Shown in pieces: positions 14,849-60,088 of a DNA stretch of 64,000 bases (within the stretch, counting starts at the first letter, position 1; the number at the start of each line of letters is the position of its first letter). The position numbers and the translations under genes were made by a program. The stretch is from positions 15,327,162 to 15,391,161 of the forward strand of contig NC_086283.1 in the NCBI RefSeq assembly GCF_021018805.1, written 5' to 3'. The notes under the pieces were generated by a model, which did not search any database, was not told where the DNA came from, and saw only the letters and a list, made by a program, of their open reading frames with translations. Source of the stretch: Prinia subflava (taxonomy: Eukaryota > Chordata > Aves > Passeriformes > Cisticolidae).

Positions 14849-14925
14849 AAAACAAACAAACAAACAACAAAACCCCCCTCCAAAACAAATAAACAAACAA
14901 ACACCCCACAAAAAATCCAAAACCA
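14849..14925. repeat. (CAAA)n low-complexity tract with C run
   Basis: AACAAACAAACAAACAACAA followed by CCCCCC and more CAAA/CAAAT units. Same composition and strand as the other A/C-rich tracts. Confidence 0.9.
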
Positions 14926-16070
14926 ATCCGCTACAGTGAATAACTGCTAATTAGCATGATTAATCTATAAGCCTTTCCCTGTACCTATCTGCAAAAAGCC
15001 CAGCATCCCTGGCTGGGTAAGGGCAGTCTTCTTCTTGCCCCAAGTCCAGCTGCTTCTCTCCATCCCTGAAAGCTCCTTGGCCAACAACCCCATGGCTGCT
15101 TCCCCTCGTGCATGCTGGCCCTCTAACCCTTCTAATTACAGCTGATCAATCTTCGTATCTATTCTTACAGACAGTAAGATCTTTCAAATACTGCTTCTTG
15201 TGAATTTGCAAGGAGAAAAAACCACATCAAGCCAATTTGAAGGCAGCAACAAACCATTTGGAGCTAGAGGATAGCAGGCCTTCTCTTCTGAGCAAACACT
15301 GAGGTTTTCAAGCCAAATTTACTTGGCTGAAAGTCAGAATATGAGGACTCTTATGAGGGAGCCAAGTTACAATCTTAGCATGATGTTCTATAATCAGTAA
15401 ATCAGTATTTAGTATGCATTTATTAAGGCTGGGATTTCCAAAAGCATTTAAGAGTGAGGTACACAATGCACAGGTATAACTTTCCCTCTGAATGGATTAT
15501 ATCACACCACTAGGATTCCCTGCAACAAACAAGACACAAAGAAAATCAAAATTCAACAATCAACTTTGAGGAAATCCAGGGGCCAGAACAGGCCTGAAAT
15601 CCAGACATTTTACATCAGATCACTGTTCTGGTGGAAATCTCTCATTTCCAACAATATCTCACTCAGCCAAGATGATTCCAAGAGCCAAGTGCCTTTAAAA
15701 AAACCTGCTTACCTACAGAAAATCCCACTGCACAGCTGAAGAGCCATTAAATAAACACAAAACTCTTTGACTCGGTGCTGTCAAGAGTAGTATGTCTGAG
15801 CCTAACATGATTTGCTTGTATGGGAAATCTGCCTACCTTTCTACAGCACTGCGGATAAACTTCTACAAGAGCGTGGTAAACTATAGTTCTACGTTTTACT
15901 GAAAGGCAGACAGACTACACCGCTGGATAGCTCAGGTCCTTAGAAGTTGCTGTTCCTAATTTGTCATTACCTAGAACATTTTTCACATTTTTAACATTTC
16001 TTTTTGTAAGGGTGATTTGCTTTCAGTGACTACATCATATACATAGTGAAAAATAACAGCAACTGACAAT

Positions 16071-16470
16071 CACAGACTCAGAATAGTTTGGGTTGGAAGG
16101 GACCTTAAGGATCATTTGGTTCCAACCCTCCTGCCATGGGCAGGGACACCTTCCACTAGACCAGGCTGCTCAGAGCCCCATCCAACCTGGCCTTGAACAC
16201 TTCCATGGATGGGACATCCACAGCTGCTCTGGGCAACCTGTGCCAGTGCCTCACTCACAGCAAAGAATTTGTTTCTAATGCTGCTTTCAGTTTAAAGCCA
16301 TTATCCCTTGTCCTATTTCAACAAGCCCTGCTAAAATGTTTGTTCTTATCCTTCTTGTAGGCCCCTTGAAGGTGCTGGAAGGTCTCCTGGGGGCCTTCTC
16401 TTCTCCATGCTGAACAAGGCCAACTCTCAGCCTGCCTTCATAGGACAGGTGCTTCAAATCCCTGATCATT
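16071..16470 (-). mobile_element. CR1 LINE, 5'-truncated 3' end (about 400 bp)
   Basis: The plus strand shows the reverse complement of an avian CR1 3' end: a degraded GAATCATA-like terminus, then GTTTGGGTTGGAAGGGACCT, CCATGGGCAGGGACACCTTC, CCATCCAACCTGGCCTTGAA and GGGCAACCTGTGCCAGTGCC. On the minus strand the distal part reads MIRDLKHLSYEGRL, resembling the C-terminal end of CR1 ORF2 (reverse transcriptase protein). The copy is truncated near 16470, typical of incomplete target-primed reverse transcription. Moderate divergence from the familiar consensus suggests an old, inactive copy. Confidence 0.93.
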
Positions 16471-18737
16471 ATACACTATAATACATTATAACAGTATTAT
16501 ATAACATTAACAATAGAAATGTATAAAAGGCAATCTTCCCAATCCTTTGAACTTGTATCTATTTGTGAATATACACAACCCCTCCACTGAACAACTGGGA
16601 TCCTATGTCCCACTCCAGAGGAATCCTCTAGATATCAGGGTTTTCATAGCCTCCATCCTTCCAGGTGATGATGACACACTTCAGCTACGTCATGGAGCCC
16701 TTCTTTAAGCAGGCCCCACATGGTGCAGCACAAGAGATAACACGACACACAGCAAATGATGCCAGCAGCACGGCTGCAGTGGCAAATCCTAGCTTTCCAG
16801 GGGCTAAGCTCCTTGTGACAGAGGGCTCCCACAGGAAGTGCTACTTCACATCCTGCACCTTTTTAACATCTCTGGATGTGTAAAATGAAGGCCAGTTATG
16901 CCTCTCAATCAAAGCACTGCAGACCAATCCCAGTCTCTTTCACACAGGCATATGGCTTAGAAAATCAGTGAACCTGAAATTTGATCTCTTATATGATTTA
17001 TTTGCCATCTTCTCCCATTACACAAATATAAATATAACAGGCATTTTTCTGCAGCCCTGAAATGATTCAGAATTAATACCAGATGACAAAATGGACCATG
17101 TACCAGGAGGGGAAAAGTTACAGTAAAAGCTCCTTCCCATTAATGGGGCCATTCATTCATATGCCCACTATTCCACAGGGGAGCTGGACATAAATTATGT
17201 ATTTGACATCTAGTTATAGACGATTATATCTGACATAATGAAGTTATAATGGAAGGAGTTTGCACATTGTTTGGTTATTAAGTGCCCATTTCTTGTCCCT
17301 GCACCAGGTGCAATGGTGATAGGCCATACAAATCATCCAGAAGAAATGCCAAAATGGGCTCCCTTACTGATAAAGCACCACACATGTTTATTAATTTAAC
17401 AGCTTGTCTTATGTCTCCCCCATCTGCTCATTTAAAACAGCTATTTGCCCTATAAATATTTCAGGAAGAGAGTGTAGCCAAAAATTAGTCTGGCAGAAAA
17501 AGAAAAAAAAAAAAGTTTGAGAAAGGGTCTCTGATGCTGTATGCAGCACTACATTCTTTTTTTTTTTTCACATTGCTCTGGCTCAACAGCTTTTTTTCAA
17601 GCTGGTAATAGGACATTCACTTTAGATTAGTGATGCTTGAAGGTGCACCACCATAGCTGACTCTACTTTCCAGCTGTTGCCACTGTCAGGTGGGGAAAAA
17701 CTTCCACCACTGATGGCAACTGGCAAAACTCAGTGCAGCGGAAAATAAAAGCCACTGTCAAAAGAATCTCCTGGGTGCTTGTCCATGTCCATTTTGAGCT
17801 TATCAGGTCATACGGTGGCTTCAAACAGCCTACAAAGAGTAACATTTCAAGGCATCTTTAAATCACAGTTCAGGATGATCTCCATAGCAAAACTCCTTTA
17901 CAAGACAGTAGCCAGCTGGTAAAAAAAAAGCTTCTTAAGAAATGCCCTTTTAAATTTTTTTTTTCACATTACTAAGAATAATGGAAAAGGTGTTAAATAT
18001 CACTCAGACTGTTCTTTCCCCCCTTTCCCAAAATCCTCAAATATTTTCAAGTGTAAATACTTTGAACAGTTTCCACCAGCACATAGGAGTTAGCACTCCT
18101 CCTTGAGAGACTTTGTTAGCTCCAGCTTTCTGCTAGAGCAAATGCTGTTATCTTATAAATAAACAGCAATGCCCCAAGGTGCTCCTCTGCAGTGAAAACA
18201 CACATTCCAGAGAAATCAGAGCAACAGTCCAGCACCACAGTGAAAACCAAAACGGTGAGCGGTCTGCCATTAACCCTTTCTGACTGTGGAGAGCTACAGG
18301 CAGGACCTCACCGATGGCAGCAAGCAAACAGGAGAACTGCATGCTGGCTGCAAGATTTCCAGGAGCTCTGGCTGCTCTGGATGTGATAATCGCTAGCCCC
18401 AGCCATGCTACCTAATAGAAATTAATAAATACAGAGTATGGCCCATGTTCAAAGCAGCTGCCTGCCCCAGGAACATCAGTGTAGTCCAGAAAAGTGGACA
18501 TTTCAGTACAGACCTGAGCCACAATGGGAGATTTTCTGAGAGTGCTTCATAAAACTGAGAAAAGCATTGTATCAGAGCTCATCCATCTCTTCATCATTTT
18601 GAGGACCCAAACAAGCTCATATCTGTCAATAGATTCCTGCATCCACATCTACCACTCTGCCCAAAACCCACCCCATTGCAAGGTCGACCCGTGTGCAAAC
18701 AGATATCCAGCCTCGAATGAGGCTGCCTATCACAAGG

Positions 18738-18817
18738 AAAAAAAAAAAAAAAACACAAAAAAACCCCACAACTCAAATGAAAAGAAAACAAACAGCAAAA
18801 GAATACAACAAACAAAT
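18738..18817. repeat. Poly(A) run grading into A/C-rich sequence
   Basis: Sixteen A, then CACAAAAAAACCCCACA and A-rich sequence with scattered C and G to about 18817. Confidence 0.85.
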
Positions 18818-23724: not shown

Positions 23725-23805
23725 CCTTGGATGGCGGTCTCTCCAGATCCGAATCCAGGTGGATCGGTGGGGCAATGTAGGAAACCTGCCCATGGTGAGC
23801 CTGAC
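23725..23805 (-). CDS. ADGRL3: ADGRL3 81-nt exon: start of the extracellular stalk after the OLF domain
   Basis: An 81-nt exon with acceptor TTTGTCCACAG (AG at 23807-23806) and donor AAGG|GTGAGT (GT at 23724-23723), phase 1 at both ends. Spliced to the OLF exon (ending GCA G) it continues Ala-Gly-Gln-Ala-His-His-Gly-Gln-Val-Ser-Tyr-Ile-Ala-Pro-Pro and then HLDSDLERPPSK. This matches the segment that follows the OLF domain in latrophilin-3, where mammals as I recall read PVHHGQVSYISPP and HLDSELERPSVK. The segment links the beta-propeller to the Ser/Thr-rich, probably O-glycosylated stalk. The following stalk exon was not found downstream (positions below 23725). The frame continues open for some 40 codons past the donor, but that read-through has no latrophilin similarity. 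Small substitutions relative to the mammalian sequence fit normal divergence of a flexible linker. Confidence 0.93.
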
Positions 23806-25612: not shown

Positions 25613-25666
25613 GGTTTATGGTTTATTTTGTTTGTTTATTTTTAATCACATGGTCTTCCTGGGAGC

Positions 25667-25771
25667 AAAAAAACAAACAAACAAAACAAAAAACAAAACA
25701 AAACACAACAACACAAAAAAAAACCCCAAAAAACACAAAAAACAAAACAAAACAAAAAAAAACCCAAAAAA
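25667..25771. repeat. A/C-rich low-complexity tract (AAAAC)n
   Basis: About 105 bp of A with interspersed C on the plus strand, starting 55 bp beyond the recognisable end of the CR1 fragment at 25195-25612. Confidence 0.93.
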
Positions 25772-26009
25772 TTCTGGAGGCTGGATTAAGGAAGATACAC
25801 ACACATTATACAAAAGACTAAAAAACATCTGTGAGTTTGTTTGGACATTCATTACAATTTAGTAATAACTATGAAAGCTTATTATTGCTTTATTAAGAGT
25901 TTTACTTTATATGGAGGAAGCAGTAGCATCAAATGCTCTCCAGTGATAAATGAAACAAGCTGCAGAAAGCTTTTATCTATTTGCTGCTGATGCAAAACAC
26001 AGTACTTCC

Positions 26010-26100
26010 AAAACAAACAAACAAACAAACAAACAAAACCAAAAAAACAACAAAACCCCCCCCAAAACTTCTGTTACTACTACTACACACTACTACTAAA
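26010..26100. repeat. (CAAA)n microsatellite with C run, followed by short (ACT)n
   Basis: Seven or so CAAA units, then A-rich sequence and a run of eight or more C, ending near 26068. A short imperfect ACT repeat follows (about 26075-26100). Confidence 0.9.
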
Positions 26101-49300: not shown

Positions 49301-49950
49301 CCCTGTGTAATGGTCATATTTATTTATTTATTGATTTCACATATCCATGGAACAGCCCATATAGTCATACTTGGGTCTCCTGGACATAATTTAGAACACC
49401 TTCTCGGAAACAGGAGGTCTGCGTTTCTCATGTAACTGGGTTTCCATGTAACTTTGGCTGCTGCCACATCCAAGGCCAAAGTATGCACAAAGGGATACTT
49501 AACTTGGTTCAAGTTCTTCCCTGGACTTCTCTACTACAGGACAGGACCCAGTCCCCACTTAAGCACCCAAATGCTCTGTCAGCATATCCTGAGCCCTGGC
49601 AAGAGCTGCTAGCACTGGGGCACCTTTTAAACCTTCAAAAGACAGAACCGGTGGTCTCTGTGATGCCCAGGAACCTGTGGCTGGTGTCCAGGGAGGAGCT
49701 GAGGCACAGATCCGGGAGATGTGTGTTTGTATGCAGCACAGTGTTGGGAAGCAGGATGGGAGCACTTCACCTTTTGGAGAGGAAGGCTTGTTGATATTTT
49801 CTTGTGTTTATTTGCACAGAACGTATCATAAGTGAGTGATGATTAAAACAGGTAACTCTAGTGAATATCAACTAATTAGGCTGCAGAAAATTTTCATCCT
49901 GTCACTACAGCCTTCTGTTTACCTCTCTGTATATGTCTAATAGGACACAT

Positions 49951-50060
49951 AAAACAAACAAACAAACCACAAACAAAAACAAACAAACAACCCCCAAAAC
50001 CAACCAACCAACCAAAACAACAACAACAACAAACCCCAAACACCAAACCAAACCAAAACC
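49951..50060. repeat. A/C-rich low-complexity tract (CAAA, CCAA, CAA)n
   Basis: Mixture of CAAA, CCAA and CAA units on the plus strand, about 110 bp. Open frames across it are artefacts of the repeat. Confidence 0.93.
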
Positions 50061-51205
50061 TGAATACTCTTCTGGGTTTAACTTCTCGAAGAATGAGGAA
50101 AGGTGCAAAGCTATCCTTACTAATGCTTTAAATTCAAAAACTCAATAGAAGCTACAAAGAAATAACCCAAAAACTCAGGAGCATTTTTGAAGAAGCATCC
50201 CCTAAAAAGCTCATTTTAAGGCCAAACAGCTCGAAAAAATACACTTCAAAGGATTTTGGTATCTTCAAGGTCTCTTCTTGAGGGCAGACATTAATGACAG
50301 GTTTCTTGGGACTTGCACGTACTGAGGAGTGTTTGCTTTCAAAGCCCCTTTTGGCATAAATGAGAAACAACCCCAGACAAAAGGGGAAAAAAAAAAAAAA
50401 GAGTGGGGTAAAACTTTAAAATGCAGCTTTTCTCATTTCTGAGAAAAACGAACAATAGGGGTTTAATTCTGTCAAGAGCCTTGAATTGCCTCTAGATCAG
50501 CTAAACTCAGCTTTTAGCACTTGAAAATAGTTTGTTTTGCCTGGTAAGTTCAACTGCTGCAGAAGCTGAGCACAGAAACTCCAGGATTTAACACTCACTC
50601 TCTCCAAAGAGTAAAAGACCATTTTTTTAAACAGTAGGTGAGAGATGTTCTGCAACAGCAAGATTTCAAATATATTCCAAACCTACATGCATAGATCTTT
50701 AATTAAAAATCACAGAAAATGATTAGACAATGTGAAGAGCAAGGGGATGTGAGCATTGCCTTTTCTACAAATTAAGCTACTCCTGCCAACTCCTAGTATT
50801 TCTGGACAGTTTGGGAAAAGACTGGAAATGCTTGATTCTAGGTAAACTGCACTCCCCAGAACCTGTATTTTATTTTAGATATCCCTGAAATGTATGATGC
50901 AAATGATTTCAAATATTTTACTGGCTATTTAGGTAGTTAAATATTTCACTTTTCTTGTTATGATCAATTTTTAGTTTTAAGAGCTCTTCTGAAACTTCAC
51001 CCTTAATTGTTTTTTAACAACCCATATGTTCAACCCATCAATTTTACAGTCCTTCTTTTCTTTTCTAATTAAGCTGATATAGTTTACAAATTTTGCTACT
51101 CAAATTGTACCACTATGGAACAGCCTGCATTGAACATGGCTATAATACAGAGAAATACTGGTGATTTCTGAAGAGAAGACAAACACATATCCACAATCCA
51201 CTCTG

Positions 51206-51369
51206 AAAAAAAAACCCAAAAAAAACCCCCAAAAAAACCCCAAAACAAAACCCAAAAAAACCCAAAAGACCCCCACAAACTCAGCAAACAAACAAACAAA
51301 CAAAACCCCCAGACAAACCAAACCAACAAAAAAATCAAACCACCACAACAAAAAAAAACCCACCAAAAA
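51206..51369. repeat. A/C-rich low-complexity tract (AAACCC, CAAA)n
   Basis: About 165 bp made almost only of A and C on the plus strand, with AAAAACCCC units followed by (CAAA)n. The transcript strand is therefore U/G-rich. It creates long artefactual Lys/Pro/Thr/Asn or Phe/Gly/Leu open frames on both strands. Confidence 0.93.
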
Positions 51370-53827: not shown

Positions 53828-54628
53828 CTGCTCTGCTATCCAGCGGGCCAAAATCCAAGGAGTATTTGACAACGTGATAATTGTTCCATACATACAGGAG
53901 ATTGTCCCGGGGATTATAATCCACAGCAGCAATGTACTGGTAGGAGTTTGGAAAGGGCACATCCACCATGCTATCCTTGCTTTGGTCAGTGTTATATATG
54001 TAATCTATTTTATTCCCTGTGGCTTCATTGTCGTCATCTTCGTACACAGACTTCACCACATACAGAATCCCGCAGATCATGAAGGCATTAGAAGCTGACC
54101 TCTTGTCATAGGCAGTATCCCATGTCCCTTCGATCCTTAATGTGTAAGGGTTCAGCTGGCTAATGACTATCTTGCCATTGTTCTGTTCTGTTGCATAGAT
54201 TACCCAGAGCCCGTTCTCATCCACGGCCAGGTCTATGTCGGACTTGCCTCCCCAGCGGTAGGGAGAGGTGTCGTGGTAGTTGGCGTTAGCTATGATTGCC
54301 TCCCCGCTCTTTATCCTCGTCCGCAGGTCAAACTTGACGATGTTCCTGGTCCGCTCCTTGTTGAAGAACAACGCCCCGTCGTACACCACGAACCCCGTGC
54401 CGTCCACCCGGTGCGGGAGTTTGTAGGTCGTGGTCGGCCTCCCGGCAATGAAGTCATCCTTGGAGGAGTATTCTGTCAGCGTGTCTGTCCGGTACGGCGT
54501 CCAGGGCATGTAGTAGATCTTGTCAGAGGCCTGCAGAGGGTCCTTGCACCAGGCGCCCGACTGGTGGTCAGACTCGAATAAGTGTTCGCTCTGGTAAACT
54601 CCTTTCAGCAGTCCAGGGCAAAGAAAAA
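53828..54628 (-). CDS. ADGRL3: ADGRL3 (latrophilin-3) exon: complete olfactomedin domain
   Basis: Internal 801-nt exon of an adhesion GPCR, encoding 267 residues of the extracellular olfactomedin (OLF) beta-propeller that binds FLRT proteins and contributes to teneurin binding at synapses. It is bounded by a 3' splice site (pyrimidine-rich run then ATGACAG, AG at 54630-54629) and a GTAAGG donor at 53827. Both ends are phase 1. Numbering the split first Val as 1, Cys4 (in CPG) and Cys186 match the conserved OLF disulfide. Asp133, Asn181, Ala182, Val236 and Asp237 match the calcium site known from myocilin and latrophilin OLF structures. Arg93 and Tyr124 fall where I recall the LPHN3 FLRT3-contact residues (R292, Y323). 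Wording such as [18 protein letters not shown] and [13 protein letters not shown] resembles latrophilin-3 rather than -1 or -2 as I remember them. The frame has no stop or frameshift. The exon is markedly more GC-rich than its introns. The open frame running past the donor (to 53649) is intron read-through, and the ATG at 54635 lies inside the acceptor region and is not a start. Confidence 0.97.
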
Positions 54629-56409
54629 CTGTCATGAGGGAAAAGAATTTAAAAGAAAAACAAAAGTTAACGTCAGTTCAGGGGTGGCTGGCCCAAGCAT
54701 CTCAACAGCTTCTAGTCCCGGAACAGAGGACACTCGAGATGAGAGGAAACCCAAGAGCAATGCCCTGTAGCTGAAGACTATTCTTCCAGCCCATCGTATC
54801 TTTGGAACAAGATCTGCTCCACCAAACTGGGTTTTCCCACCCCCACTTTTCTATCAGCTGTGTCTTGTTTTCTTACTGCTTTTCAAATCTACTTTTACAG
54901 GTAATACTTACTTGGACCACTCAGTTTTGTAAACTCTGAAATGAATATGTGCCCCAAAGGATTTCTGGGTTTGTATTTCCAAATTATATTCTGCAGTGAA
55001 TCTGTACCTACTAGGTGAAGGGCTAAACTCCGAGGGAATTGATCCACATATTTATTTGAACAGCCCACAGAAGAGTGGCCTAGAAATGGAAATAAGAGAA
55101 AGAAATTCCCATCCTTACAGCCCAAGTGATATTAAATATTTAAACGATACCAATAGCAAAGCAGAGGCGAATCCCTTAGCAACTCAGAAGAGCGTTTAAA
55201 GCAAAGGGAGTGCGGGGAGAACACCCATCTGGAGTATAACTAGAAATGAGACTTTCCAAGCTGCTACAGGACACATGAAACATGCAGTCCACACAATTAA
55301 AAACGAATGACATATGGATGCTGAAAGGAAAAGACAAGGAAGAAAGGAAGAAAGGAAAGAAGGAAGGAAAAGAATAAAGTTTGCTGGAGAGGAACCCAAT
55401 GTCTAGATTTTAATCAGTTAAAAAATGTCCTGTTAAATATAGTAGTAATTCAAACTTAAAAACATATACCTTTTATTGTTACATGAGAGGAGCACAGAGG
55501 AGCAGTTTGACTAACTGGGATGCTTTGCTGCTCAGACTTCGGGGAGGGCTGACAGGGGCCAGGGCACACCCAAAACCTGGGAAGAGGCTCAGCCGCTGCC
55601 TGGCTGGCCTCGGCCCCACAGGAACACCACCACCACCAAGGGGCCAGCTGGATGGATAGGGAGGCAAGAGGAGGGATGCTGCAGAGCAAATCTGGCCCTC
55701 GCCATCCCCATCAGCACCCTCCTGGCCGGGAGGCGCTGCACATGCTTCGGGGGGGGGGAGAATATTGGCTGGTTATTTGGAACGCTGATCTCCATGATCC
55801 GCGAGAGGCACAGAAACCATGACGATGGGACGGGCGGCAGGGAGGCATGAAGAAGTATCCCACCGCGCACTTCTGGCAGCACGGGGCTGGCAAGATGGGA
55901 TCCCACATTCACACTTCCTGCTCGGAGCATAATTGGTTATTTTTTGCAAATGCAGAGATTGGTAATGTTGTCTGGAGAGCAAGACAGGAGGAAAATCAGA
56001 TTTAATAATCAGTATAAAAATTATATAGATCCATTGGAGTCTAAGTAACCACGCAGAGTTGCTGAAAAAGGGGTGCCTTTTCCAAGAGGCTTTTATGCCA
56101 TAGTAAGACATACTTATGCACGTACATAAGTATGCACACCTTCCAAATTCTTTGGGGCAGGAAAATGAGTTATCTAAGCCTTTGAATAGAAATTCAATGA
56201 AAAAAAAAAAAAAAAGGTGGCACTGGCAAAAACTTTTCAGCAAATGTGAGTTATCTGGTGAAGTTGAGCAGCAGAGATACTAAATAAACTTTAACAAAAA
56301 GGTAGTGAGGAATTAATGACAAAGTATTTCAACTAAAACGTTAAACTGTTAAATAACTTAGCCTATACATAAGTAATATATATATATAATTTGAAAGGTA
56401 TTTAATTAC
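54629..56409 (-). other. ADGRL3: ADGRL3 1.8-kb intron between KVEQK microexon and OLF exon
   Basis: Runs from donor GTAATT (56409) to the AG at 54630-54629, 1,781 bp. It includes a GC-richer patch (about 55500-55930) with a run of ten G at 55749-55758, a GGAA/GAAA microsatellite (55324-55374) and an A run (56200-56215). Sense-strand open frames up to 156 codons occur here (for example 55773-56243), but they resemble no latrophilin sequence and begin in a homopolymer-encoded Phe run, so they are treated as chance. Confidence 0.88.
55324..55374. repeat. GGAA/GAAA purine microsatellite
   Basis: Imperfect repeats of GGAA and GAAA, purine-only apart from a single C. In the transcript it is a pyrimidine tract inside the short intron between the microexon and the OLF exon, about 700 nt before the OLF exon. 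Confidence 0.88.
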
Positions 56410-56424
56410 CTTTTTGTTCCACTT
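56410..56424 (-). CDS. ADGRL3: ADGRL3 15-nt microexon encoding the KVEQK insert (latrophilin splice site A)
   Basis: On the minus strand this reads ACAATAG|AAGTGGAACAAAAAG|GTAATT, a consensus acceptor and donor around 15 nt. The OLF exon begins at the second base of a Val codon. Joining the two therefore gives (A)AA GTG GAA CAA AAA G|TT, i.e. Lys-Val-Glu-Gln-Lys-Val. This is the five-residue insert known in latrophilins between the lectin and olfactomedin domains. If the exon is skipped, the predicted junction (TAC A|TT TTT, assuming a conserved Tyr codon upstream) reads Tyr-Ile-Phe, the insert-minus form. The exon is preceded by about 40 nt of almost pure pyrimidine. It lies 1,781 bp upstream of the OLF exon. 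In latrophilin-1 the insert is reported to lower teneurin affinity; the same role in this species is inferred. It is far too short to appear as an open reading frame. Identity rests on exact peptide, phase, splice sites and position together. Confidence 0.93.
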
Positions 56425-56466
56425 CTATTGTAGAGAGAGAGGTAAAGAGAGAAAGGAGAAAAGAGA
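56425..56466 (-). promoter_or_regulatory. Extended polypyrimidine tract and 3' splice site of the KVEQK microexon
   Basis: In the transcript orientation about 40 nt upstream of the microexon are nearly all C and U, with repeated CUCUCU and UUCUCUC motifs, ending in ACAAUAG. A branch-point-like UUAAU lies near 56471-56477, about 50 nt from the exon. Long pyrimidine tracts compensate for very short exons, and CU-rich motifs are known binding sites for PTBP proteins, which repress many neuronal microexons in non-neuronal cells. I see no UGC motif (the reported SRRM4 element) between the tract and the AG. PTBP control is an inference. Confidence 0.7.
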
Positions 56467-59400
56467 ATAGATTAATGGTACTGTATTGGCCAGATACTTT
56501 TCTTTACCTCTTTCATAAGAAAAGGAAGATATATTAATTTACTTTGGTATGTGAACATTTATATATATAAAATCCTGTCCTCTGATATATACACTGGATA
56601 ATATGCAGACAAGCTGAACAAAATACAGGTAAATTTTAACTTTAGAAAAATCTGGCAGAAGAAAAAAACAGCCCAACACTTGGGATGTAATGAGCCCCCT
56701 GGACTCTACTTTGTCAGCAACAACCTTGGACTAGTTTCACAGAGCAAAATGAAATACCTATAAAGTGAAATATGACTGATACGGTTTTATGTATAGAATA
56801 AAAAATTCCAGGGAGAAACTTTATATAATATACATCTTCATATATTTTGCCCAAATCCTGTAAAACAAAGATCCCTACCTAAAACAGGAGAACATTAATT
56901 TATGATTTGAAAAGAAAACTTAAGAGAGTCAAATGAGGCATGTCCGCGGATGTGCGTAGAGTCCTGTCCTTTGTCTTGGAGAAACACACTTTAGTAAGAG
57001 TAGGAAAAAAGCACTGGAAACATTGTAGCACTTATAAGATCCCAAAGATTCACAGTGTTAACAAGACAAAAAATGTGTAAGCATTATTTTTAAAGCCCAA
57101 CCCCAGAACTTGCTGGATATTTTAATGTGAATCATTCACCATGCATCATAATGCTGCTGAAGAGACTGTGTACCTTTGGAGAAAGCCCTTTCAAGTGGAA
57201 TACATAAATGAAGTGCACTTATTAATTCCTAAATACTCAGTACTAGTTTTTATACCTAACAACCTTCTTGCAAGAAAGTTTGGGGGTCCTTATCCATAAG
57301 CCTCCTGCAGTTGTGGCACAGGCCCTGACTTCTTCCAGCATGGTGGGGACCCAACAGCGTCTGCACCCCCAGCCCTGCGGTTTGCTGGTTCCATGGGACC
57401 TCTTCCCCAAAATGTAAGAGAAGACAGGCCCCATGAAATATCAGAGGGAGAAGTGAGAACATGCCAGCAAACCAGGATGGCTTTGACAGCTGAAATATCT
57501 CTGGAGACAGGAACGTGACAGTGTCCACGCATGCTTTGGTTCTGTTGCCCAGAGTTTGCTCCAGCCCCTCCCAGACCGAGACACTTGCCAAGTGTCTTCT
57601 GATGCTGGCACTGAAGAACTCCTTGCATTCAGAAGTCTTGTCCATGTCTATGGGAAATTGCAGGCTTGGAGGAAGAACAATTTCAGGGTAGGGCTGCAAA
57701 TGCTCTGGCTAGACATATGGATCTACACGTCCCTGTCCAGAGAGGCATACAGCTGGAGCCAACTGCAGCTCCCAGAACGAGCGTCTCCAAACTCCAACAG
57801 CCTTTTTTACCTGGGCTTTGATTCAGGCGCCTTTCTACCTCATAACAGGTTAAGGTTAAAGGCAAATGTTTTCAACATGTGGCTGTCAGGACTCTAGGGA
57901 CCAGACACACTGCATTTGAGTGCAATCTGGTTTTGCAAGGGAAGGAGCCAGCAATATTTAAAAGCTCCAGACTCAGCAATCAGAGAAACCCACACACCAC
58001 TTGTTCTCCCCATCCTGGGCTGTGGCTGGTCACAGTTAAGTAAGGTATTCAGGAAAGCACTAAATGTCCCTGGCAAAAGCAAGAAGGCAACATGACAGAT
58101 CCCCAAATGTATGGCTTCACACTGATTCATCTGGCTGATGGTATACAGTACCTCTGGCAGCATGGAAGGTAGTAATTTACATTTCCAAAGGCACAAAAGC
58201 TTTTGTAATGCATTCAAACAACTGCGTGATATTGTAAAGCAGGGAGAGAGAAGCTTCTAGAGGAGATAATATATTTGTGACCAGCTGATCCTAGTGACCT
58301 GAAGCATTAATTACCCTTACCCCGAATAACTCATATGTGTTATTAACGCTCAGTGCCATATCCAGCTCTCTTATAATTCCAGACACAGATGTGTTTTGGT
58401 GACCTCCTAAATGGTGTTTCTATTATATGTATTGCAAATACATATTTTCCCTCTGCTAATTTAAGAATTAATGCTTTTGAATTTCAATAATTACTCAGCT
58501 TATACAGGGGTGCCATATTTTTCAGACAAGTTCCATGAGAAGGCTGGAAGATTTAGCTCATTGAACCATATTAAAAAAAAGGATCTAATTAGAGTCTGAT
58601 TATCCCTTCAGTTATATAACATACCACTGCAAAACAGTCTTCATAAAGTACTGATGGAATTTTTAAAATTTTGCTCATTTACAGACAGTTTCACATCTCT
58701 GTAATGCTTGTGCTGATCTACAGAGCTTATGTACAGATAACAGCACAGAGTGGACCTTAGTTTCCTACACAGTTCCACAGAAAAAAAACCCCTAGGCATA
58801 CATAGTTTTTACTCTTATAGTGAGGTTTTCCATTCCTGCTGTCAGTGCGCAGGAGGAGAACAAGGGTATTTCACCTTGATTCCCTACAGTGGTTGCCAGT
58901 GCCATTGACTTCAACAGTGCCAGAGGCCAAAAAGAAATCAAGGACCGCTTGCTATGTCTGAGGGGAGTTACTAACAAGACTTTCCACACACACTGACTTT
59001 CTCATGATTCTTTAGATGGAAGGAAAACTGAGGACAGCATGCAATCATGAGGCACTACAGCCTGTCCCCAAGCAGGCTCCTGCCACCCGTTCAGAGAAAT
59101 TGCACAAAAGCATTAATTAAATGTTCTTAGTATTGCTGTGTCGAAGCTCTGAAAACACACTCTGGCACAATTAACACTTGAACAACATTAACTGCTCATT
59201 TTCTTACTGCCACATTGAATTGCACTCAACTATTTAAGGCACAGGCACACAGTGGCAGAGCCATATAGAGAGCTGTCTCCCTGGCACTGCTTCAAACCCA
59301 CACAACAGCAGCATAAAACTCCTGGGAAAAAAGAGAAAATGTTAGTAGGGGAATGTTAAAAGGCAATTGCAAAAGTAGTGCAAAAATTTGCGCCCTGTAC

Positions 59401-59972
59401 TTTGCTAGCTGTTTGTTTCACTTGTTACTTTTTTAAGGGTGGATGTTTAATAGTGGAATAGGTGACATCTACTCCCTGCTCCTGTTCCTCATAGATCTGA
59501 TTGATTTAATATACTCAGACTAATAATTAATACACTTAGTACTAAACACATAGTTAATGACAAAACAGAAGGACTAAAAAACCCAGGTTTTTGAGGTTGA
59601 CCTTAGTAGCACAAGCTGCAGCTTCTCAGCCATGCTGAGAGTGTTTTTCATGATGTGGCTGCTGCATCTTTTACCCACAACCAACTTGACCACAAGATGA
59701 AAAGCAATTAATGTGTTTCTCCCTAACACACAGCCCCATCTATGGGTCCTACACACAGGTTGAACAGGGATATGTTTGAGAAGCTGAAAATCTACCAAGG
59801 TGCATGTAGAGCAAAGCATGCCCATGTAGAGCCTGCTCACTGGCGAAGGTGCACTTCTTTTTTGAAGGCATGGTTGAGTCCTGGAGTCACAGTAAAAAAA
59901 ACAAAACACACATTCAAAATTCAGGGCAGCAGCAAATCTGAAATAAAAATACCTAAAGCCCAGGGAATGAAA

Positions 59973-60088
59973 ATCACAGAATCATCAAATGGTTTTGGTT
60001 GGAAGGGACCTTAAACATCATACAGTTCTAACAACACAGCAATGGGCAAGGACGTATTCCGCTATGCCAGGTTGCTCAAAGCCCCATT
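59973..60088 (-). mobile_element. CR1 LINE, very short 3' end
   Basis: Plus strand begins ATCACAGAATCATCAAATGG, then GGTTGGAAGGGACCTTAAAC, GGGCAAGGACGTATTCC and CCAGGTTGCTCAAAGCCCCA, the reverse complement of about the last 115 bp of an avian CR1. Similarity stops at 60088, so it is strongly 5'-truncated. Confidence 0.9.

Follow-up and report, generated by a model that had tools for sequence, protein, structure and literature searches.

The insert KVEQK is known in ADGRL3 (latrophilin-3), as given in a passage of PMC9902482, and an insert in the linker between the lectin and olfactomedin (OLF) domains of latrophilins lowers their affinity for teneurin according to passages of PMC7195488, PMC6608557 and PMC6629964. 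The teneurin effect is described for latrophilin-1 in the relevant part of PMC6629964, as the original prediction for the locus presented here had stated, and FLRT3 binding is unchanged by the insert in the account of PMC6608557. A synthetic antibody activates ADGRL3 independently of the insert in the experiments described in the passage of PMC9902482, in which teneurin was not tested. As for its use, the main brain form of Lphn3 is without the insert in the passage of PMC6629964 that cites Boucard 2014. In the corresponding part of PMC13108381, inclusion of mouse Adgrl3 exon 9, one of four variable exons besides the C-terminal ones, is cell-type-dependent, and all three latrophilins differ most in their splicing between neuronal and non-neuronal cells; the two accounts differ in emphasis.

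The exon tables of PMC13108381, as far as they bear on this site, give mouse Adgrl3 an exon 8 ending in CCTTATA, an exon 9 of AAGTGGAACAAAAAG and an exon 10 starting with TTTTTCTTTG. The paralogues have homologous microexons at the same linker position and with the same EQK core: splice site A of mouse Adgrl1 (exons 7a/7b) is 18 and 15 nt long (TAGAAGTGGAGCAGAAAG and AAGTGGAGCAGAAAG), and exon 9 of mouse Adgrl2 is 12 nt long (TGGAGCAAAAAG, encoding MEQK), the differences from the ADGRL3 core being synonymous (GAG CAG AAA; GAG CAA AAA).

The DNA analysed here is a stretch of 64,000 nt from Prinia subflava, referred to as the window. Judging from its sequence, 15 bases on the minus strand almost certainly form a cassette microexon of ADGRL3 splice site A in this bird (Table 1). 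The KVEQK splice insert itself is already known, and bird protein records already contain it.

Table 1. Positions of the ADGRL3 features read in the window
Feature	Position	Strand	Length	Sequence	Basis
ADGRL3 splice-site-A microexon (predicted)	56410..56424	-	15 nt	AAGTGGAACAAAAAG	direct reading; identity with mouse exon 9; bird KVEQK records
3' splice site region of the microexon	56425..56480	-		pyrimidine-rich, UCUCU repeats, acceptor TAG/AAG	
5' splice site of the microexon	56404..56409	-		GTAATT	
ADGRL3 olfactomedin (OLF) exon	53828..54628	-	801 nt	acceptor ...CATGACAG, donor GTAAGG	
Next ADGRL3 exon (mouse exon 11)	23725..23805	-	81 nt	acceptor CCACAG, donor GTGAGT; G-QAHHGQVSYIAPPIHLDSDLERPPSK	

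The microexon, its splice sites and its frame

Read from 56424 to 56410, the minus strand gives the 15-mer between AG and GTAATT, exactly as originally predicted, with ...CTCTCTCTACAATAG before it and GTAATTAAATACC after it, and this 15-mer is present once in the window. Its splice sites are intact, with a YAG acceptor that follows a strong pyrimidine tract and a GTAA donor. Indeed, the sole AG in the 56 nt upstream is the acceptor itself, and the pyrimidine fraction at -40 to -4 is 0.89, a value of at least 0.89 being found at 2 of the 2224 YAG sites of the minus strand (the microexon's included) and at 1 of the 2311 of the plus strand. A G at +5 is common in the donor consensus, and the microexon donor is without it. 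Furthermore, the window was screened for small exons, defined as AG, then 3-30 nt in a multiple of three, then GTRA, with no nearby AG and a pyrimidine content at least that of the microexon. The screen returned one minus-strand site, the microexon itself, and none on the plus strand; as the pyrimidine threshold is the microexon's own value, this count describes rarity and is not an independent test.

The microexon is in phase 1. If the lectin exon is taken to end as mouse exon 8 does, the codons run (A)AA GTG GAA CAA AAA G/TT TTT CTT and encode K-V-E-Q-K-V-F-L, so that the 15 bases supply KVEQK and the initial G of the following Val codon. Since the following exon starts with TT, the joined products would be VPY-KVEQK-VFLCPG on inclusion and VPY-I-FLCPG on skipping, and both junctions occur in bird records. 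Inclusion thus does more than add residues, since it also converts the shared codon from Ile to Val. The frame proposed in the original prediction was therefore right, but the Val that it had placed at the start of the OLF exon exists on inclusion only and is replaced by Ile on skipping. Similarly, the first Lys codon is not complete within the window, its initial base being supplied by the lectin exon beyond it. We infer that this base is A, since bird proteins show both KVEQK (A/AA) and Ile (A/TT). Mouse lectin exons 7 and 8 gave no match above noise within the 64-kb window, so the upstream lectin junction lies outside it.

With regard to engineered proteins, insert-minus constructs carry Val after Tyr, as seen in the ADGRL3 primers given in PMC9902482 and in the ADGRL1 chain of PDB 6ska, at a codon where natural skipping gives Ile.

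Host gene and genomic setting

Downstream of the microexon, the first ADGRL3 exon encountered is the OLF exon, 1.8 kb away; it is intact, with an open frame of 266 residues. Compared with PDB chains, these residues match the ADGRL3 chain 4rmk best (619 bits, 264/266 identical) and the ADGRL1 chain 6ska at 432 bits. They show 100% identity with ADGRL3 records of Gallus, Columba and crocodilians and are unchanged in 46 of the 48 bird and crocodilian records among the best 120 of 4602 matches, Serinus canaria and Rhea pennata being the exceptions among the matches listed. Three listed matches that rank above these by score, at 59-76% identity, are an ADGRL2 of Gadus, a Petromyzon protein and an ADGRL1-like protein of Sinocyclocheilus. 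On sequence comparison the host gene is ADGRL3 and not ADGRL1 or ADGRL2, since the ADGRL3 chains outrank the ADGRL1 chain and the identity to bird ADGRL3 records is complete; the original assignment to this gene and to splice site A agrees with the OLF match and with the identity of the 15-mer to mouse Adgrl3 exon 9. The peptide of the 81-nt exon is the same, or nearly so, in the 25 of the 48 listed bird and crocodilian records that include it. Within the OLF exon (53828-54628), third-position GC is 0.80 over the first half and drops to 0.56 over the second, the mouse values being 0.51 and 0.53, which is a sharp GC gradient inside one exon of a conserved protein.

The alignment to another vertebrate ADGRL3 locus that had been suggested could be made at base level with the mouse exons. 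All 15 bases are identical to mouse exon 9 (Table 4 of PMC13108381), in the same phase and at the same place before the OLF exon. Mouse exon 10 has the same length as the OLF exon of the window, 801 nt, with 680 of the 801 bases identical. In the same codon phase the OLF exon has 263 15-mers, of which 16 are likewise identical, so the identity of the microexon provides only modest evidence for constraint beyond coding. Moreover, KVEQK is found in bird and crocodilian proteins; ADGRL3 of chicken (Gallus gallus isoform X5) and pigeon (Columba livia isoforms), compared as proteins only, has the identical OLF protein and the KVEQK junction.

The reading of the genome as bird-like is borne out by the unchanged OLF protein in the listed bird and crocodilian records and by two copies of a repeat (16082-16181 and 59988-60087; 77% identity across 100 nt) with the sequence GGTTGGAAGGGACCTTAA..., which we take to resemble the 3' part of avian CR1; the OLF protein match alone does not separate birds from crocodilians. 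In addition, the plus strand shows interrupted A-rich arrays of the AAAC/AAAACCC type at 14849-14933, 18726-18814, 25662-25778, 26008-26079, 49943-50059 and 51172-51367, possibly retroelement tails or satellite-like remnants.

Inclusion, skipping and rival readings of the site

In order to compare protein forms, records were collected by a search with the OLF exon only, in which the insert cannot bias the ranking; the best 120 of 4602 matches comprise 28 bird and 20 crocodilian records. Among the bird records, 8 carry KVEQK (six of Columba livia, with Tinamus guttatus and Gallus gallus), 17 are skipped and 3 differ in their upstream end, and Columba livia is one bird with both forms among the matches listed. 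The crocodilian records divide into 11 with KVEQK, 8 skipped and 1, of Alligator sinensis, that shows KVEQK after a different upstream end. These counts refer to cluster representatives and not to species, the Gallus record alone representing 2187 clustered sequences. Species found only in the skipped form give no evidence of exon loss, since further isoforms may lie outside the best 120 of 4602. A mouse query that carries KVEQK, and that favours KVEQK matches, returned 105 records with KVEQK, 14 with Ile and 1 with another junction among the best 120 of 4695, the named ones being mammalian. Four models named 'isoform CRA', for latrophilin 3 of rat and human (records P0108, P0209, P0225 and P0234), read VPY-SIV-FLCPG at the junction and are perhaps model artefacts.

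All six bird records named 'AGRL3 protein' among the matches listed are without the insert and look like gene-model omissions. This agrees with the expectation that automatic models would leave only the insert-minus protein, but that expectation fails for Gallus, Columba and Tinamus, whose records carry KVEQK. For the same reason the microexon, which had been called invisible to ORF-based annotation, is neither invisible nor without annotation in birds: it is present in the ADGRL3 records of chicken, pigeon and tinamou. Models of the 'AGRL3 protein' kind without the microexon nevertheless matter to those who build receptor constructs from them.

Two readings would deny that the site is a working exon. 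Fifteen nucleotides are short, a look-alike with two mismatches lies at 59409-59423, and two such matches were reached in 9 of 100 shuffled windows, all of which would suit a non-exonic 15-mer that is flanked by AG and GT by chance. We give this a negligible probability: given its trinucleotide composition, the window should hold ~0.001 exact copies, or 4e-6 once the AG and GT on either side are required, and the position upstream of the OLF exon, the phase, the strand, the polypyrimidine tract and the identity with mouse exon 9 agree with one another. It is also highly unlikely that the cassette has decayed, its sequence kept and its splicing lost in the lineage. The 17 skipped records of the 28 listed for birds, with RefSeq-type isoforms of Patagioenas, Lathamus and Rhea among them, are what such a loss would produce, but this set includes the six apparent omissions, the chicken, pigeon and tinamou records include KVEQK, and the full base identity with mouse speaks, as modest evidence, against decay.

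A different question is whether the predicted microexon has two states or three. The window reads TAG/AAG/TGG, so that a 12-nt exon starting 3 nt later is possible in principle, and a tandem TAGAAG acceptor would then yield 15-nt KVEQK, 12-nt MEQK or skipping. The 12-nt MEQK form of mouse Adgrl2 and the 18- and 15-nt forms of mouse Adgrl1, as given in PMC13108381, are consistent with staggered use of such an acceptor; the latrophilin insert is given as MEQK or KVEQK in a passage of PMC7195488, and a full and a shorter insert are reported for Lphn2 in PMC6629964. However, in the passage of PMC6629964 the shorter form belongs to Lphn2 only, and PYMEQK occurs in none of the 293 records pooled from three protein searches, among the matches listed. 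A search with an MEQK query added 57 new records, all 57 of which read KVEQK; its best 120 of 2705 matches hold no MEQK record of any latrophilin, and thus no positive control. The literature search found no paper on a NAGNAG acceptor in a latrophilin. We regard a three-state site as unlikely, and as quite unlikely the fuller proposal that bird ADGRL3 is a three-way dial (KVEQK, MEQK or none, with the Val/Ile codon) whose three linkers set teneurin affinity; if it were true, three linker lengths and charges would do so. The preferred reading remains a cassette microexon that is either included or skipped.

Regulation and function of splice site A

The tract upstream of the microexon contains TCTCT at 6 per 100 nt; of 12780 overlapping windows, 13 attain this density, and 7 of the 13 include part of the microexon site itself. 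The UCUCU motif is bound by PTB proteins, and this tract would be a candidate site of PTB-type repression outside neurons; a UC-rich tract is equally what a strong acceptor looks like. Inclusion of the microexon in Prinia is probably neuron-biased.

The canonical layout for SRRM4 (nSR100), as described in part of PMC12626420, has UGC and a UC repeat directly upstream of the exon. At the ADGRL3 microexon the UC repeats are present and UGC is not: none lies within 100 nt upstream, the nearest ends 180 nt upstream, and two are found downstream at +137 and +140. The same source also treats 44 microexons that typically have only one of the two elements as possible SRRM4 targets, so SRRM4 may still control this exon. 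Rbfox-type GCAUG is absent from the 100 nt upstream and the 150 nt downstream, and no RNA family reached its gathering threshold in the window. Loss of SLM2 alters ADGRL3 in interneurons (PMC10066595), the affected exon not being seen in the passage concerned.

Regarding function, inclusion of KVEQK would make the linker longer and charged, and skipping would leave it as Y-I-F-L. By analogy with the mammalian latrophilins, the microexon would tune teneurin adhesion, and its role in the bird is likely the same as theirs. Given that splice site A is base-for-base the same in bird and mouse, a switch of teneurin affinity at this site, if there is one, is probably older than the divergence of birds and mammals.
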